A stretch of DNA of 42,507 bases from Bacteroidota bacterium (GCA_026391945.1 JAPLDA010000098.1:1-42507), one strand, 5' to 3'; shown: positions 4,747 to 40,396, counted from the stretch's first letter. Numbers and translations are program-made. The notes: a model not told the origin generated them from the sequence alone.

Positions 4747-5033
4747 GTTACCAACTCATCACCCGGAAGCCGGCAGAGATTCACCTTCAGGAAGCATTCG
4801 CATGGTATGAAACGTAAAGGGTCGGTCTTGGTCATGAATTTTTAATCAGCGTTGAAACAACACTGGCTTTTATTGAAAATAACCCATGGGCATTCCAATC
4901 CCGTTATAAAAACATTCATTGTGCATTAACTCCTCGTTTTCCTTATGGAATTTTTTATTTTGTGGAGGATGTTAAAATTGTTGTCGTCGCCGTTTTTCAT
5001 TTAAGCCGCAATCCCAAACGCTGGAAGAAATAA
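4743..5033 (+). pseudogene. RelE/ParE-family toxin interrupted by an in-frame stop
   Basis: From the ATG at 4743 the frame encodes a RelE/ParE-fold toxin of 96 codons, but codon 25 is TAA (4815-4817). The frame then stays open to the natural TAA at 5031. The pieces match the family: N-terminal EAFAWYE, then after the stop RVGLGHEFLISVE (family W-Y-E-x-x-R-x-G-L-G-x-x-F), then PRFPYGIFYFVED and a C-terminal VFHLSRNPKRW. The stop falls two codons after the Glu of the conserved WYE. A single C-to-T change of CAA would explain it, because Gln is common there. A 24-residue peptide would be non-toxic, and restart downstream is unlikely because no good start codon follows quickly. No other lesion is visible, which suggests recent inactivation or a sequencing error. 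Confidence 0.85.
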
Positions 5034-5055
5034 TTTTCTGTAACCAGGTTTCGCT

Positions 5056-5134
5056 TTCATGTGCTGCCAGGTTTTCCAACCCGGCAGAAAAAGTCTTAGT
5101 CCGTATCAGGTTGGGAAACCTGACACCACATGAA
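5056..5134. repeat. REP/MITE-like element: long inverted repeat whose two arms are each palindromic
   Basis: Left hairpin 5064-5087: CTGCCAGGTT, loop TTCC, AACCCGGCAG (one mismatch). Right hairpin 5106-5123: TCAGGTT, loop GGGA, AACCTGA (perfect). The arms are also inverted copies of each other, and the similarity extends outward to CATGTG (5058-5063) and CACATG (5127-5132), so the whole 75-bp unit is one imperfect inverted repeat with about five mismatches in 26 positions. It lies between the decayed toxin and the convergent MFS gene. There is no T-tract, so it is not a normal terminator. The design resembles paired REP sequences or a small MITE; no transposase is nearby. Confidence 0.7.
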
Positions 5135-5240
5135 TTGATTTCAACGAAATGTGAATCGATAAGACAATACGAATGGAGATGCCGGCTTTTATTTTCACCC
5201 GTTCTCCGTTTCCAATTTCACTTCTAAATGAGGTACTGAA

Positions 5241-29791: not shown

Positions 29792-32749
29792 ATGTCATTA
29801 AAAACAATTGTATCCATATTGCTTAAAGCGTGTATCTTTTTTTTTCTTTTTCTTTTCTCCTGCACACTGAAAGCGCAGGAGAAACTTCCGCCTTTCATTT
29901 CGAAACAATCTGCTCATTGGGCGGATTCAGTCATCTCCGGCCTGTCGCCTGAACAGCGCATCGCGCAACTGTTCATGGTTGCCGCGTGGAGCAACAAGGA
30001 TTCCGTTCATGTGAATGAAATCAAACAACTGATCACCACATGGGGAATCGGCGGACTCATTTTTTTTCAGGGCGGACCGGTTCGCCAGGCTTTGCTCACC
30101 AATCAATACCAGTCGTTGTCGAAAGTTCCGCTGCTCATTGGAATTGATGGCGAATGGGGATTGGCCATGCGTCTCGACAGCACCATCCGTTTTCCGCGGC
30201 AGATGACACTTTCAGCGATGCCTGAAGATACCCTGGTTTATACCATGGGAGAGGAGATTGCGCGCGAATGTAAACGAATGGGAATACACACTAACTTTTC
30301 TCCCGTGGCTGATGTCAATAACAATCCCCAGAACCCGATCATCGGCAGCCGTTCGTTCAGTGATGATAAAAATACGGTGGCAAAATATGCTTCCGTTTAT
30401 ATGAAAGCATTGCAGGATCATTTCATCCTGGCTACCGGAAAACATTTTCCCGGTCATGGCGACACGGATATGGACTCGCATCTTTCGTTGCCGACCATCC
30501 GGAATTCAAAAACAGAGATGGATACGCTGGAGTTGTATCCTTTCAGATCGCTGATCCGGCAAGGACTTGGCGGGATGATGGTGGCACATTTGAGCGTCCC
30601 GGCTTTCGACAGCATTCCGGATCATCCTTCCACGCTTTCAAAAAATATTGTCACAGGTTTATTGAAAGAACAGATGGGATTTAAAGGAATCGTCTTCACC
30701 GATGCTTTGAATATGAAAGGCGTGAGTGCCTGCTACAAACCCGGTGTACTCGATAAACTTGCTCTGCTCGCAGGCAACGATGTGATGTTGTATTCTGAAG
30801 ACGTGCACAAAGCCATCGATGAAATTCACCTCGCTGTGGAAAACTGTGAAATCAAACAGGAAGAAATTGATGCAAGGGCGAAAAAAATCCTGATGCTGAA
30901 ATACTGGGTGGGATTGAATTATTACCATTCCATTGATACCACGCACCTGTATGCTGATCTGAATACTTCATCAGCACAATACCTCCGGAATTTGTTGTAT
31001 GAAAAATCGCTGACCTTGCTGAGGAACAAGGATTCCATTCTTCCGTTACAGCATCTCGATTCGCTCAGGATTGCATCGGTAGTCGTTGGTGATCCGAAAA
31101 ATAATCCGTTTCAGCAACAACTTCAGATGTATGCTCCCGTTGATTGTTACGCCATTGAGAAAGATGCGCCGGTAAGTGTTTTTGAAGCAGTTGAAAAATT
31201 TCTTGTCAACTATGATGTGGTGATTTTGAGTCTTCACAACACCACCATGAATGCGCAAAAGGATTTTGGAATGACGGAAGCGGAATTGAAATTCATGAGC
31301 AAGGTTGTCGCACAACACAAAACCATCTTTGTTGATTTCGGAAATCCATACACCTTGTCGAAACTGGAATTTCTGAAGGATGCTGCGGCATTCGTCATGG
31401 CTTACGAGGACATGCCCGTTTCACAGAACCTCGCTGCCCAGTTGCTGTTTGGTGGTATTGAATCAAAAGGAAAATTACCGGTTGCATCCAACGGAGTATT
31501 TCCCAAAAACAGCGGCCTGGCAACTCCGCCGCCCATCCGTTTTAAATATACGTATCCTGAAGATGTAGGTATCAAAAGCGATGCTCTGAATAAAATTGAT
31601 TCAATAGTATGGAAAGCCATCCGGGCAGGGGCTTTCCCGGGTTGTGAGGTGTTGGTTGCAAAAGATCAGAAAATCATTTATTACAAATCATTCGGTACGC
31701 ATACTTACAAGGATACCTCTCGCGTCATGAATACGGATCTGTACGATGTGGCTTCCGTCACCAAAATTGTCGCCACCGGGCTCGCCGCGATGAATCTCGT
31801 GGATGAAAAAAAAATGGATCTGAACCAGCCTCTTTCAGAGTACCTGCCGGCTTTGCTTTTTACAAACAAGAAAAACCTGGTGATCCGGGATGTGATGGCT
31901 CACCAGGCAGGATTGCAACCGTGGATCCCATTCTGGAAAAATACATTGAACGAACAAGGCAACCTGTCGGATAAAATTTTCGTGCGGAAGGAAAATGAAA
32001 ATTTTTCTGTTCGTGTGGCGGAGAATATTTACATGAGAAACAGCTACCGTGATTCCGTCATGCAATGGGTTTACAATTCACCGGTCGGTGATCGTGGAAA
32101 ATATGTTTACAGTGATCTTGGTCCGATCCTCATGAAGTCAGCAATTGAAAAAATCACCTCGCAATCATTGGATCAATACCTGGATCAGAAATTTTACCGT
32201 CCGCTTGGATTAAACAATTTCTCCTTCCATCCGCGAAATAAATTTGATCTGAAAAGAATCATCCCGACAGAAAACGATACACTTTTCCGGCACCAACTTC
32301 TTCATGCCGATGTGCACGATCCTGCAGCGGCTTTGTTTGGCGGCGTTTCAGGGAATGCGGGAGTATTTTCAAATGCAAACGATGTGGCTGTGATCATGCA
32401 GATGTGCCTGAACAGGGGATTTTACGGAGGTAAAAAATACATCAGCCAGACAACGGTGAATGAATTCACCAAACAACAGTTTCCATTGAATAAAAACCGT
32501 CGCGGACTTTTCTTTGATAAGCCCGAACCGGATCCCAAAAAAGCAAGTCCGGTTTGCAAAGATGCTTCTTTGAAAACATTCGGACACCAGGGTTTTACGG
32601 GAACGTGTACCTGGGTAGATCCGGAATATAACCTCGTATATGTTTTTCTTTCCAACCGCGTCAACCCCGATGCTTCCAACGAAAAGCTTGTGAAGATGAA
32701 TGTGAGAACGGAGATCCAGCAGGTGATTTATGATGCGATGAGGAAGTAG
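29792..32749 (+). CDS. Exported GH3 glycosidase fused to a beta-lactamase-fold serine hydrolase (985 aa)
   Basis: A signal peptide or lipoprotein-like leader is present (FFFLFLFSCTLKAQE). The first ~560 residues are a family 3 glycoside hydrolase: SPVADVNNNPQNPIIGSRSF (170-189), the NagZ-type loop KHFPGHGDTDMDSH (217-230) carrying the Asp/His acid-base dyad, and FTDALNMKG with the nucleophile Asp304. A GH3 C-terminal alpha/beta domain follows (~395-590). The last ~390 residues are a class C beta-lactamase/DD-peptidase-like hydrolase with SVTK (Ser655, Lys658), YSD (773-775) and HQGFTG. NagZ-type GH3 enzymes release N-acetylglucosamine from muropeptides, and serine hydrolases of this fold act on D-amino-acid peptides, so combined cell-wall recycling or turnover in the periplasm is likely. 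This fusion is known in Bacteroidota; substrates here are inferred. Confidence 0.9.
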   Translation: MSLKTIVSILLKACIFFFLFLFSCTLKAQEKLPPFISKQSAHWADSVISGLSPEQRIAQLFMVAAWSNKDSVHVNEIKQLITTWGIGGLIFFQGGPVRQALLTNQYQSLSKVPLLIGIDGEWGLAMRLDSTIRFPRQMTLSAMPEDTLVYTMGEEIARECKRMGIHTNFSPVADVNNNPQNPIIGSRSFSDDKNTVAKYASVYMKALQDHFILATGKHFPGHGDTDMDSHLSLPTIRNSKTEMDTLELYPFRSLIRQGLGGMMVAHLSVPAFDSIPDHPSTLSKNIVTGLLKEQMGFKGIVFTDALNMKGVSACYKPGVLDKLALLAGNDVMLYSEDVHKAIDEIHLAVENCEIKQEEIDARAKKILMLKYWVGLNYYHSIDTTHLYADLNTSSAQYLRNLLYEKSLTLLRNKDSILPLQHLDSLRIASVVVGDPKNNPFQQQLQMYAPVDCYAIEKDAPVSVFEAVEKFLVNYDVVILSLHNTTMNAQKDFGMTEAELKFMSKVVAQHKTIFVDFGNPYTLSKLEFLKDAAAFVMAYEDMPVSQNLAAQLLFGGIESKGKLPVASNGVFPKNSGLATPPPIRFKYTYPEDVGIKSDALNKIDSIVWKAIRAGAFPGCEVLVAKDQKIIYYKSFGTHTYKDTSRVMNTDLYDVASVTKIVATGLAAMNLVDEKKMDLNQPLSEYLPALLFTNKKNLVIRDVMAHQAGLQPWIPFWKNTLNEQGNLSDKIFVRKENENFSVRVAENIYMRNSYRDSVMQWVYNSPVGDRGKYVYSDLGPILMKSAIEKITSQSLDQYLDQKFYRPLGLNNFSFHPRNKFDLKRIIPTENDTLFRHQLLHADVHDPAAALFGGVSGNAGVFSNANDVAVIMQMCLNRGFYGGKKYISQTTVNEFTKQQFPLNKNRRGLFFDKPEPDPKKASPVCKDASLKTFGHQGFTGTCTWVDPEYNLVYVFLSNRVNPDASNEKLVKMNVRTEIQQVIYDAMRK

Positions 32750-32845
32750 TGTTTGAGTGAATGAGTATGTAAGTGTTTGAGTACTTAGCCTCTTAAATCA
32801 ATACTTACAATACTTCAACACGTAAATACTGAAGCACCCGAACAC
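32749..32845. repeat. Imperfect inverted repeat before the S23 gene
   Basis: A left arm from 32749 (GTGTTTGAGTGAATGAGTAT and onward) and a right arm ending at 32845 (the complement of GTGTTCGGGTGCTTCAGTAT) align without gaps over nearly 40 bases, with roughly three quarters identity. The arms are built from GAGT/AGTATTT-like words. It begins at the end of the GH3-hydrolase gene and could double as a terminator stem, but has no T-tract. Confidence 0.6.
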
Positions 32846-32871
32846 ATATCTTTTTATTCGAACTCTTTTCT

Positions 32872-32879
32872 TATTTTTG
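32872..32879 (+). promoter_or_regulatory. Candidate -7 box (TATTTTTG) for the S23 gene
   Basis: TATTTTTG, followed by CATC, fits TAnnTTTG and ends 25 bases before the ATG at 32905. The -33 position has only a T-rich run near 32850. Confidence 0.4.
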
Positions 32880-32904
32880 CATCAAATTAAAAATTTTCAA
32901 CATC

Positions 32905-33279
32905 ATGGCAGAAATTAAACATTTTGAAGAATTGCATTACTGGCAGAAATCCCGGGTGCTTGTTCAGAGAATTTATTACATCAGCAAAGAAGGAGAGTTG
33001 TCCAAAGATTATGATTTGAAATCGCAACTTCGCAGAGCTGCATTATCAACCATGAATAACATTGCTGAAGGGTTTTCACGATTCAGCAAAAAAGATTTTA
33101 TTAAATTCCTGGATTACACAGTCGGTTCATCTGCAGAAATAAAAAGCATGTTGTATGTTCTTGAAGACTTGAATTATGTTCACCCTAAAATAATAGATGA
33201 ACTTCGGATACTTACCGATGACACTCACAATCTTACTTCAGGTCTGATCAGGTATCTTAGAAAGAAAAAAGGTGGATGA
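32905..33279 (+). CDS. S23/four-helix-bundle protein
   Basis: A 124-residue all-helical protein of the S23 (23S rRNA intervening-sequence, TIGR02436) four-helix-bundle family. Signatures are HFEELHYWQKSRVLVQRIYY at the start, LKSQLRRAALSTMNNIAEGF, SRFSKKDFIKFLDYTVGS and AEIKSMLYVLEDLNYV. Family proteins form pentameric bundles with a basic surface and are found both in rRNA intervening sequences and as stand-alone genes; their function is unknown. Here no rRNA is nearby. The gene is flanked on both sides by unusual short repeats and sits alone between a cell-wall enzyme and bshA, as if inserted. It could be cargo of a small element. Confidence 0.9.
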   Translation: MAEIKHFEELHYWQKSRVLVQRIYYISKEGELSKDYDLKSQLRRAALSTMNNIAEGFSRFSKKDFIKFLDYTVGSSAEIKSMLYVLEDLNYVHPKIIDELRILTDDTHNLTSGLIRYLRKKKGG

Positions 33280-33295
33280 GTGTTGCACTTCTAAC

Positions 33296-33337
33296 ACTTA
33301 CTCACATCAACACATCAAGACTTACTTACATCAACAC
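33296..33337 (+). repeat. 24-bp-period direct repeat between the S23 gene and bshA
   Basis: ACTTACTCACATCAACAC (33296-33313) and ACTTACTTACATCAACAC (33320-33337) match at 17 of 18 positions, with a 24-base period. Read in reverse complement, the words (GTGTTGATGTGAGTAAGT) resemble the GTGTTTGAGTGAATGAGT-type words left of the S23 gene, so the flanks are roughly inverted to each other. Confidence 0.6.
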
Positions 33338-33343
33338 CTACTC

Positions 33344-34477
33344 ATGAACATTGGCATCTTATGTTACCCGACTTTCGGTGGTAGTGGAGTCGTGGCTACC
33401 GAACTCGGGAAAGCACTTTCCGAAAAAGGCCATCACATACATTTCATCACCTACAGCCAGCCTGTTCGCCTTGAACATTTTTCCGAAAACGTTTCTTACC
33501 ATGAAGTGAGTGTCGCTGATTATCCTGTCTTTGAATATGCTCCTTACGAAACTGCATTGACGAGCAAACTCGTTGACGTGGCTTTGTTTGAGAAACTCGA
33601 CATCATCCATGTTCATTATGCCATTCCTCATGCATCGGTGGCATACATGGCGAAACAAATTTTAGCTGCACAGGGTTACCATGTTCCTTTTGTCACTACG
33701 TTGCACGGAACCGACATCACACTGGTCGGGAAGAACCCGGGGTATACTCCTGTGGTCACGTTTGCCATCAACATGAGCGATGCCGTGACGGCGGTTTCAA
33801 AAAACTTAATGGATGAAACCTATCATTCGTTTAAGATCAAAAAGGAAATTGAAGTGATTCCAAACTTCATTGATTTGCGAAGGTTCAACAAACAACGCAA
33901 GGAACATTTCAAGAGAGCCATTGCGCCGAATAACGAGCGGCTGCTGGTTCATGCATCCAACTTCCGGCCGGTGAAACGCGTAAGTGATGTCGTAAAAATA
34001 TTCAATCGTGTAGTTGAAAAAGTTCCTGCGAAACTTTTGCTGATCGGCGACGGACCTGACCGTACCAACATTGAAATGGAATGCCGCGAATCGAAAGCAT
34101 GCGATCACATCCGTTTCCTTGGCAAGCAGGAAGCGATTGAAGAAATTTTATCTGTGTCCGATTTATTCATCCTTCCCTCTGAAACGGAAAGTTTCGGGTT
34201 GGCCGCACTGGAAGCCATGGCCTGCCAGGTTCCTGTGATCTCCAGTGATACCGGCGGGATTCCGGAATTGAATGTACACGGTGTCACCGGTTTCATGAGT
34301 CATGTGGGCGATGTGGATGACATGGCAAAAAATGCGATTCACATTCTTGAAAACGATGAACGGTTATTCAAGTTCAAACACCAGGCATTGGAGCACGCTA
34401 AAAAATTTGACATCAGAAAAATTTTACCCATGTACGAATCACTGTATGAACGCGTGATCCGTCAATCTAAATCCTGA
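33344..34477 (+). CDS. bshA: N-acetyl-alpha-D-glucosaminyl L-malate synthase
   Basis: BshA joins UDP-GlcNAc and L-malate, the first step of bacillithiol synthesis. I start at ATG 33344 (MNIGILCYPTFGGSGVVATE); a GTG 24 codons upstream would add repeat-derived sequence. The product is 377 residues, the normal length, with a GT-B fold of family GT4. FGGSGVVATELGKAL binds the nucleotide sugar, and HFITYSQPVRL, THLHGTDITLVG-like (TTLHGTDITLVG) and NFIDLRRF are BshA hallmarks. SETESFGLAALEAMACQVPV is the retaining-GT E-x7-E motif. Other bsh genes (bshB, bshC) are not in the window, so they must lie elsewhere. Confidence 0.94.
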   Translation: MNIGILCYPTFGGSGVVATELGKALSEKGHHIHFITYSQPVRLEHFSENVSYHEVSVADYPVFEYAPYETALTSKLVDVALFEKLDIIHVHYAIPHASVAYMAKQILAAQGYHVPFVTTLHGTDITLVGKNPGYTPVVTFAINMSDAVTAVSKNLMDETYHSFKIKKEIEVIPNFIDLRRFNKQRKEHFKRAIAPNNERLLVHASNFRPVKRVSDVVKIFNRVVEKVPAKLLLIGDGPDRTNIEMECRESKACDHIRFLGKQEAIEEILSVSDLFILPSETESFGLAALEAMACQVPVISSDTGGIPELNVHGVTGFMSHVGDVDDMAKNAIHILENDERLFKFKHQALEHAKKFDIRKILPMYESLYERVIRQSKS

Positions 34478-39621: not shown

Positions 39622-39948
39622 ATGAAAAAAGTTCTCTCTATTCTTTTAATTGCAGGCATCTCCGCATTGGTTGCCTGCGGACCAAGCGCAGAAGAAAAAG
39701 CTGCTGCTGAAAAAGCCAAACAGGATTCTATTGCTAATGTTGAAAAAGCCAAACAGGATTCCATTGCTGCTGTTGCTGCTGTTGAAAAGGCAAAAGCTGA
39801 TTCAATCGCCAACGCTGCTGCTGCTGAAAAAGCAAAAGTTGAAGCAGCTGCTGCCGAGGCTGCAAAGAAAAAACCTGCTCCTAAGGCAAAAACCAACGAG
39901 CAGAAAATGAAAGACGATAAAAAAGTCCTTCAGAAGCAAAAAGGCTGA
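39622..39948 (+). CDS. Miniature lipoprotein with Ala/Lys/Glu repeats, copy 1
   Basis: A 108-residue protein with a lipoprotein leader (KKVLSILLIAGISALVAC, Cys19). The mature part is almost only Ala, Lys, Glu, Asp, Ser and Ile in units starting EKAK-x-DSIA with 11- and 14-residue spacing (EKAKQDSIANV, EKAKQDSIAAVAAV, EKAKADSIANAAAA), then EAAAAEAAKKKPAPKAKTNE and a basic tail QKQKG. Such spacing suits a long alpha-helix or coiled coil. It is monocistronic, between its own promoter and a hairpin terminator. The role is unknown; a Lpp-like tether between membrane and wall is a speculation based on small size, helical body and Lys-rich end. Confidence 0.85.
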   Translation: MKKVLSILLIAGISALVACGPSAEEKAAAEKAKQDSIANVEKAKQDSIAAVAAVEKAKADSIANAAAAEKAKVEAAAAEAAKKKPAPKAKTNEQKMKDDKKVLQKQKG

Positions 39949-39997
39949 TATTGTGTTGCAAATAGAACTATACTCAAAAGAGAAGTTCTTTTAAAAA

Positions 39998-40032
39998 CAA
40001 CAATTAAAAATTGTTGATTTATTTTGTTTTTC
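39998..40032 (+). terminator. Terminator after miniature lipoprotein 1
   Basis: CAACAATT, loop AAA, AATTGTTG (39998-40016) is a perfect 8-bp stem, followed by the T-rich run ATTTATTTTGTTTTTC. It overlaps the start of the promoter region of copy 2. Confidence 0.65.
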
Positions 40033-40034
40033 TA

Positions 40035-40064
40035 TTGTTCAATAGAAAAATTAATATACATTTG
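40035..40064 (+). promoter_or_regulatory. Promoter of miniature lipoprotein 2
   Basis: TTG at 40035-40037, 19 bases, then TACATTTG at 40057-40064, followed by CGCCC: a full match to the Bacteroidota -33/-7 arrangement. The ATG at 40097 is 32 bases later. Confidence 0.65.
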
Positions 40065-40096
40065 CGCCCAAAATCACTTAAAATCATCAAACAAAA

Positions 40097-40396
40097 ATGA
40101 AAAAAGTTCTCTCTATCCTTTTAGTTGCAGGTATGGCTTCTTTAGTTGCCTGCGGTCCTAGTGCTGAAGAAAAAGCTGCTGCTGAAAAAGCAAAACAGGA
40201 TTCTATTGCTAATGTTGAAAAAGTAAAGCAGGATTCTATTACTGCTGTTGCTGCTGCTGAAAAAGCAAAAGCTGATTCAATTGCAAACGCTGGTGCTGAA
40301 AAAGCAAAAGCTGATTCAATTGCTGCTGCTGCTAAAAAGCCGGCTCCAAAAGCTAAAGTTGCTGCGAAACCAGCAAAACCTGCAAAGAAAAAATAA
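40097..40396 (+). CDS. Miniature lipoprotein with Ala/Lys/Glu repeats, copy 2
   Basis: A 99-residue paralogue of copy 1. The leader (KKVLSILLVAGMASLVAC, Cys19) and first ~50 mature residues are nearly identical at both protein and DNA level, pointing to recent duplication. Repeats are EKAKQDSIANV, EKVKQDSITAVAAA, EKAKADSIANAGA, EKAKADSIAAAAKK, and the protein ends in a Pro/Ala/Lys tail KPAKPAKKK. The tail is the part that differs most from copy 1. It has its own promoter and a long hairpin terminator. Function is unknown. The C-terminal Lys run could contact peptidoglycan or nucleic acid, or be linked like the terminal Lys of Lpp; none of this is shown. Confidence 0.85.
   Translation: MKKVLSILLVAGMASLVACGPSAEEKAAAEKAKQDSIANVEKVKQDSITAVAAAEKAKADSIANAGAEKAKADSIAAAAKKPAPKAKVAAKPAKPAKKK

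Follow-up and report, generated by a model that had tools for sequence, protein, structure and literature searches.

Open reading frames (ORFs) for S23 proteins occur in inserts of 23S rRNA that are removed by RNase III (PMC4990558). The question considered here is what an S23 gene is doing at positions 32905-33279 of a 42,507-nucleotide stretch of DNA from a Bacteroidota bacterium (GCA_026391945.1, JAPLDA010000098.1:1-42507; the whole stretch is called the window), where it sits outside the 23S rRNA gene, between a gene with GH3 and penicillin-binding protein (PBP) folds and bshA, and is bordered by short repeated words. The first-pass annotation, made from the sequence alone, had proposed that this gene and its roughly inverted flanks could be a small mobile or RNA-processing unit. 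From a comparison with S23 loci in other genomes, it seems probable that the unit in the window is a copy of a selfish element that is widespread and consists of a single gene, S23, with its own word arrays in opposed orientation on either side. The copy would be lodged in the gap between neighbouring genes of a host operon, in the same direction as these.

Tandem words at S23 genes

In a non-redundant set drawn from several phyla, arrays with a period of 7, 8, 14 or 16 bp within 200 bp of the gene were detected at 139 of 209 S23 genes (67%) and at 37 of 254 control genes (15%; P 2e-31). The controls were taken from the same 20-kb neighbourhoods as the S23 genes and therefore their rate includes solo arrays, which have no S23 gene of their own. 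The period statistic was chosen after the relatives of the window genome had been seen, and a set of named genomes served as replication; this second set was scanned with one S23 subclade as query, since the broad S23 alignment was too diverse, and comprises 80 further loci, two of which (L255 and L263) are contigs seen earlier. In the relatives, 107 of 201 flanks contained a tandem array as compared to 4 in shuffled sequences, and the periods were 7 bp in 57 arrays, 14 bp in 19 (76 for the two together), 8 bp in 11 and 16 bp in 5. At the named-genome loci, 85 of 159 flanks contained arrays (0 in shuffles), with a period of 7 bp in 50 and of 14 bp in 14 (64 of the 85). Tandem repetition was also raised at 101 S23 genes relative to the 254 controls (P 1e-26), and similar S23 copies with arrays were encountered in Planctomycetes, Verrucomicrobia, Cyanobacteria, Fibrobacter and Lambdaproteobacteria. 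The words are mostly 7 bp long across S23 loci and 8 bp long in a minority that includes the window copy, the median number of units per array is 5.4, and the unit takes the form GTNNNNR when read in the sense of the gene and inward from either side (GTTGAAA, GTATTAG, GCAATTA, GTAGAAA, GTAATCA). The excess of arrays over controls and shuffles in both collections, isolate genomes included, is strong, and for the S23 family it refutes the idea that low-complexity intergenic DNA lies beside these small genes by chance or through an assembly artefact; this extremely improbable explanation can point to a P of only 0.05-0.06 for the array in the window and could apply only to details of that copy.

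When the upstream flank of each gene was compared with the reverse complement of its downstream flank, the median score was 19 for the 101 S23 genes in relatives and 11 for controls (P 2e-23). Flanks were inverted in 64 cases and direct in 14, and in 47% of the loci (expected 2.4%) the two flanks of a gene matched each other better than any of 40 swapped flanks did. The inverted arrangement noticed in the first pass is present in the window and is the rule for S23 genes, not a peculiarity of this copy. On the sense strand, G exceeds C in 57 of 64 upstream arms (P 8e-11), and own flanks are predicted to pair as RNA with -43 kcal/mol, as compared to -31 kcal/mol for swapped flanks.

Both the strand asymmetry of the arms and their better pairing as RNA speak for an insert that acts at the RNA level, in the manner of the intervening sequence (IVS) of 23S rRNA. 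Such an insert would be co-transcribed, its arms would pair, RNase III would excise or split it, it would spread by rare copying into DNA, and its words would be selected as RNA stems. The occurrence of S23 ORFs in the RNase III-excised hairpin inserts mentioned above and the co-direction of S23 genes with operons also favour this explanation, as does the Coxiella 23S rRNA insert, in which three tandem GACAGAT heptamers precede the S23 ORF (PMC4990558), a situation that fits the array pattern at S23 loci. However, the RNA structure predicted for the window is mainly a local hairpin within the 5' flank, rather than a stem around the gene, and has 0.5 expected pairs between this flank and the 3' flank, no Rfam family was matched in a search of the window region, and no RVT_1 reverse transcriptase is present in the window genome. 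An RNA-level insert can be entertained tentatively.

Words, genes and insertion sites

Whether the words belong to the gene or to the site was evaluated with pairs of S23 proteins of at least 65% identity encoded at different sites in different genomes. Words were shared in 49% of 43 such pairs but in 2.1% after permutation, and because S23 pairs are not independent, the permutation maximum of 14% (2000 permutations) is the fairer yardstick. Copies located before aspartate kinase (L006) and before 3-hydroxyacyl-CoA dehydrogenase (L035) have TGAGATATGAGACG words in common, and two genomes of the same genus with S23 in the sufB-sufC gap have GTTGAAAG words in one and CAAGTGGC words in the other, on both flanks in each case. 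A first Mantel test with all 101 genes gave a rho of only 0.06 (P 0.04); this weak result is explained by the turnover of words below about 50-60% protein identity, and it is the close-pair test that shows the link.

The evidence for gene and words being one unit, and for the re-use of a site, is clearest at the gap between the thiolase and acyl-CoA dehydrogenase genes of Flavobacterium. In its empty state this gap is clean, 12-31 bp long and has no array. When it is filled with S23 class a (at least 91% identical), GAATAGA-type words are always found on both sides, and when it is filled with class b (57-63% identical to class a), GAAGCAA-type words are always found on both sides. As a separate observation, at other Flavobacterium loci (L406, L409, L412, L416, L418 and L425) an unrelated, gene-less palindromic element of 150-230 bp (TTTGTCATTTCGACGAAGGAGAAATC ... 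GATTTCTCCTTCGTCGAAATGACA) sits in this gap, where sister species have S23.

These states bear on the possibility that the word arrays are there first and act as hot spots for the insertion of S23 genes, so that the words would belong to the site. Solo arrays are what such a process would start from, and they do occur. Array density near S23 is about 1 per kb; stretches that were not chosen for S23 in five S23-rich genomes (373 kb) contained 6 arrays of period 7/14 and 4 of period 8/16, and six S23-free genomes (351 kb) contained 1 array, counts that are too small to decide the matter. One genome (G008) has 60 solo arrays in about 390 kb. In this genome, which is rich in solo heptamer arrays, several hairpin copies of the AAGTGTGAGTGTAAGAAACAGTGTGAGTG word were also seen around one S23 gene (G008:C1 265301-266861). 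In the window genome, a solo octamer array with the word of the window lies directly before a deaminase gene with no S23 nearby (C19, about 45.33 kb; L052:1300-1400). From the existence of such arrays it follows that arrays can form or persist in the absence of the gene. Yet insertion into a pre-existing tandem array should leave the words to the left and right of the gene in one orientation, which disfavours this explanation as the flanks of S23 genes are inverted in 64 cases and direct in 14; moreover, the empty Flavobacterium sites are free of arrays and the same site carries different words with a different S23 class. We consider it decidedly unlikely that the words belong to the site.

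Two points of the first-pass annotation can be taken up here. A search for the same words beside other S23 genes of the genome had been proposed. Each of the five S23 genes in the window genome turned out to have different words, so that the idea of a single word for the whole genome was rejected; the word of the window does recur once, in the solo array before the deaminase gene. Flanks found widely without S23 genes had been regarded as an argument against a unit. This applies only in part: solo arrays exist, even with the window word in its own genome, but arrays adjacent to S23 are far more frequent, and the stretches of S23-free genomes contain almost none.

The proposal that relatives be inspected for empty sites was borne out at the bshA locus. 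The bshA gene is present in all relatives searched, and its locus was read in 29 of them. The upstream gene and bshA are adjacent in 23 of the 29, none of which has S23 at the site, and the distance between these neighbours is 594 bp in the window and 31-191 bp in 21 relatives. Judged by this comparison, the window unit is an insertion that is missing from the same gap in relatives. In two relatives (L219, L224) an insert of another kind, about 650-690 bp long, separates the GH3/PBP-fold gene from bshA. The sufB-sufC gaps measure 501-735 bp where S23 is present and 16-125 bp where it is absent. Given empty sites and words that are shared by both flanks and by the S23 clade, the unit would therefore consist of the gene plus its words, and it is probably mobile on evolutionary time scales. 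The small mobile unit with dedicated flanks suggested in the first pass thus gains support from the empty bshA sites, from the tie between words and gene across unrelated sites and from the insertion states at one operon gap.

Of 61 genomes from the same order or class, 50 have S23, and the copy number per genome is 0-12. Its orientation agrees with that of the operon in 73 of 79 tandem contexts, and sufB-sufC, thiolase/3-hydroxyacyl-CoA dehydrogenase, sdhA-sdhB and resistance-nodulation-division (RND) efflux operons are recurrent hosts. The recurrence in a few operons, such as the first three of these, could indicate an ordinary resident gene or autoregulator, whose arrays would be operator-like sites of an RNA- or DNA-binding protein that tunes the operon and whose patchy distribution would be due to gene loss. 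The ratio of non-synonymous to synonymous substitutions (dN/dS) of orthologous S23 copies is 0.04-0.16, and the protein is thus under purifying selection, as a resident gene would be. Against this stand the many unrelated host operons and the variable copy number per genome, the finding of two distinct S23 classes at one site in one genus, other members of which have this site empty, and the lack of word likeness across loci except with the S23 clade. A resident gene is accordingly an unlikely explanation.

The window copy and its protein

The whole unit in the window (32749-33343, + strand) consists of a word hairpin, the S23 gene and an inverted word array and spans the distance from the stop codon of the upstream gene to the ATG of bshA. 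Its 5' flank (32749-32845, + strand) consists of two octamer arrays in inverted arrangement, GTGTTTGA GTGAATGA GTATGTAA GTGTTTGA ... and the complement, which form one hairpin. AGTGTTTG is repeated with period 8 at 32748-32782 and CAATACTTA with period 8 at 32799-32830. The imperfect inverted repeat described here in the first pass is real: the predicted folding energy is -24.8 kcal/mol (z -3.24), which was equalled by 2 of 200 dinucleotide shuffles. The 3' flank (33280-33343) has the same kind of word on the opposite strand (GTGTTGAT GTAAGTAA GTCTTGAT GTGTTGAT GTGAGTAA), and its previously noted direct repeat with a period of 24 bp was recovered as two copies (33293-33313 and 33317-33337) that are 90% identical and spaced by 24 bp, that is, by three octamers. 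In opposed orientation, 32754-32774 matches 33324-33344 (21 nt, 71%) and 32769-32780 matches 33290-33301 (12 nt, 92%).

Between the flanks, the S23 gene is intact and encodes a four-helix-bundle protein of 124 amino acids (32905-33279, + strand), and in profile searches both PF05635 (100.2 bits; cut-off 33.8) and TIGR02436 (96.8 bits; cut-off 24) were matched well above their cut-offs, so that the gene called in the first pass was confirmed. It is the sole gene of the unit, which contains no transposase, nuclease, reverse transcriptase or second gene; in particular, no gene for a Y1 (REP-associated tyrosine) transposase forms part of it. The sequence TATTTTTG at 32872-32879 (+ strand) matches the Bacteroidota -7 promoter consensus, TAnnTTTG, and is a possible promoter of S23 itself. 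A sigma-70 scan of the strand of S23 gave no promoter match at the window locus, and no terminator-like sites were found at the window hairpins. The neighbours named in the first pass, a cell-wall enzyme and bshA, were verified by profile matches: upstream lies a gene for a fusion of GH3 beta-N-acetylhexosaminidase with a beta-lactamase/PBP4B-like domain (29792-32749, + strand, 985 amino acids), and downstream lies bshA (33344-34477, + strand; TIGR03999, 560 bits). Elsewhere in the window, palindrome-like intergenic DNA (TGCCAGGTTTTCCAACCCGGCA ... GGTTGGGAAACCTGACACCACATGA) with an inverted score of 20 was seen at 5000-5180, and Tandem Repeats Finder (TRF) reported repeats of 33/42 bp with units such as GCTGTTGAAAAAGCAAAACAGGATTCTATT at 39708-40386.

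Taken singly, the window copy is modestly above chance, and the strength of the case comes from about 200 other S23 loci. Its upstream-versus-downstream inverted score is 17, the 95th percentile of control genes being 18.3, and its 120-nt flanks match no better than swapped flanks, most of the left array lying farther out. With degenerate arrays and flank scores inside the upper control range, this copy was rejected as proof by itself.

Several observations weigh against a selfish element that carries its own words. The array in the window is degenerate, with a P for the tandem score of 0.06 in the left flank and 0.045 in the right. About one third of S23 genes have no array above threshold, and solo arrays and hairpins without S23 occur. 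The tie between words and S23 clade could equally be plain co-inheritance, and the co-direction of S23 with operons may partly reflect ordinary gene organisation. No target-site duplication or exact junction could be defined, as filled and empty sites are too diverged or too short, and no transposition event within a species was seen in the loci compared.

We know of no function for S23/IVP proteins. The AlphaFold2 model of the window protein has four helices (predicted local distance difference test, pLDDT, 92), and the top matches in Foldseek were XCC0516 (2gsc, template modelling (TM) score 0.83-0.89) and BT_0352 (2rld), followed by Avd of diversity-generating retroelements (DGRs; 4dwl, TM about 0.74) and the DGR ribonucleoprotein. 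A role of the Avd/DGR kind was rejected, there being no RVT_1 reverse transcriptase in the window genome. XCC0516 has been described as a homopentameric ring (PMC4990558). As the median array contains 5.4 words, one word per subunit is an attractive idea, although it is inference only. By this mechanism S23, resembling ring-forming XCC0516, BT_0352 and Avd in fold, would recognise the words of its own unit in RNA or single-stranded DNA, each subunit taking about one word, and word binding together with the hairpins might allow the insert to be tolerated within a polycistronic message and the unit to be maintained and moved by host enzymes. A bolder version is possible but doubtful: S23 proteins would be clade-specific readers of tandem heptamers whose subunit ring grips about five words, gene and words would make up a new class of single-gene selfish element in which the flanks are kept in step and the words are replaced as the protein diverges, and two other families, GxxExxY/PDDEXK_3 and DUF559, would have invented the same way of life in parallel.

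Other word-flanked families and known systems

Genes of these two families, both nuclease-like, were seen between words of their own. GxxExxY/PDDEXK_3 genes (L135-L164) lie between words with a common theme across genomes (ACCACAGAG.CACAGAG / CTCTGTG.CTCTGTGG), and the cross-genome similarity of words is greater within the family than between families. Stand-alone DUF559 genes (L167, L169, L171, L177, L184) have palindromic words of the CCCCTCTCC/GGAGAGGGG theme on either side; the words of this family are shared across genomes, with 40% of pairs above 0.1 as compared to 11-13% between families. DUF559 domains were also seen in frame within housekeeping proteins (L166, L168, L170, L172), namely RecG (between the two helicase domains), leucyl-tRNA synthetase (in the editing domain, in two genomes) and the activation domain of methionine synthase, and those of their flanks that were read are G+C-rich palindromic words (CCTCACCCC..CTCTCC..GGAGAGGGG) that are translated through. 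In the sufB-sufC gap of one genome (L252, G054), a gene-less word palindrome of the DUF559 type (CCTCACCCCCAACCCCTCTCCCGGGGGAGAGGGG) fills the gap.

No paper on a link between S23 and heptamer arrays was found in the open-licence literature searched, where the only related papers were those on Coxiella and Geobacter. Tying S23 to a defined nucleic-acid motif that varies by clade gives an orphan family a direct binding experiment by swapping, and suggests that the inserts in rRNA are a special case of a more general element that dwells in operons; S23 units are also a candidate source of unexplained short tandem words in operon gaps.

Among known systems, Rickettsia palindromic elements are small palindromic insertions that are tolerated by the host gene or operon, in frame and gene-less. 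They share with the S23 unit that they are tolerated insertions, but differ in being in frame and without a gene, and the DUF559 inserts are closer to them. REPIN/RAYT systems resemble the S23 unit in having inverted short repeats beside one gene, and the solo copies of these repeats that occur elsewhere in a genome may have a counterpart in the solo word arrays. However, RAYT is a Y1 transposase, whereas S23, a four-helix bundle, has no known catalytic site and its tandem 7/8-mers vary by copy. The accessory protein Avd of DGRs has the same fold as S23, but a DGR needs to be distinguished from the S23 unit as the window genome lacks a reverse transcriptase; no template/variable repeat pair was seen either, though no search was aimed at one. 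In Geobacter metallireducens, dispersed elements of tandem heptanucleotides have been reported as regulator sites, with no stated S23 link (PMC2700814); these are like S23 arrays in being short tandem 7-mers in many copies, between and within genes, and unlike them in their reported role. The 23S rRNA IVS of Leptospira and Coxiella involves the same protein family and is considered selfish, and its complementary insert ends may have a counterpart in the inverted flanks of S23 genes. Unlike these inserts, which reside in rRNA, the S23 unit lies between protein-coding genes and its tandem arrays are locus-specific and linked to the S23 clade.

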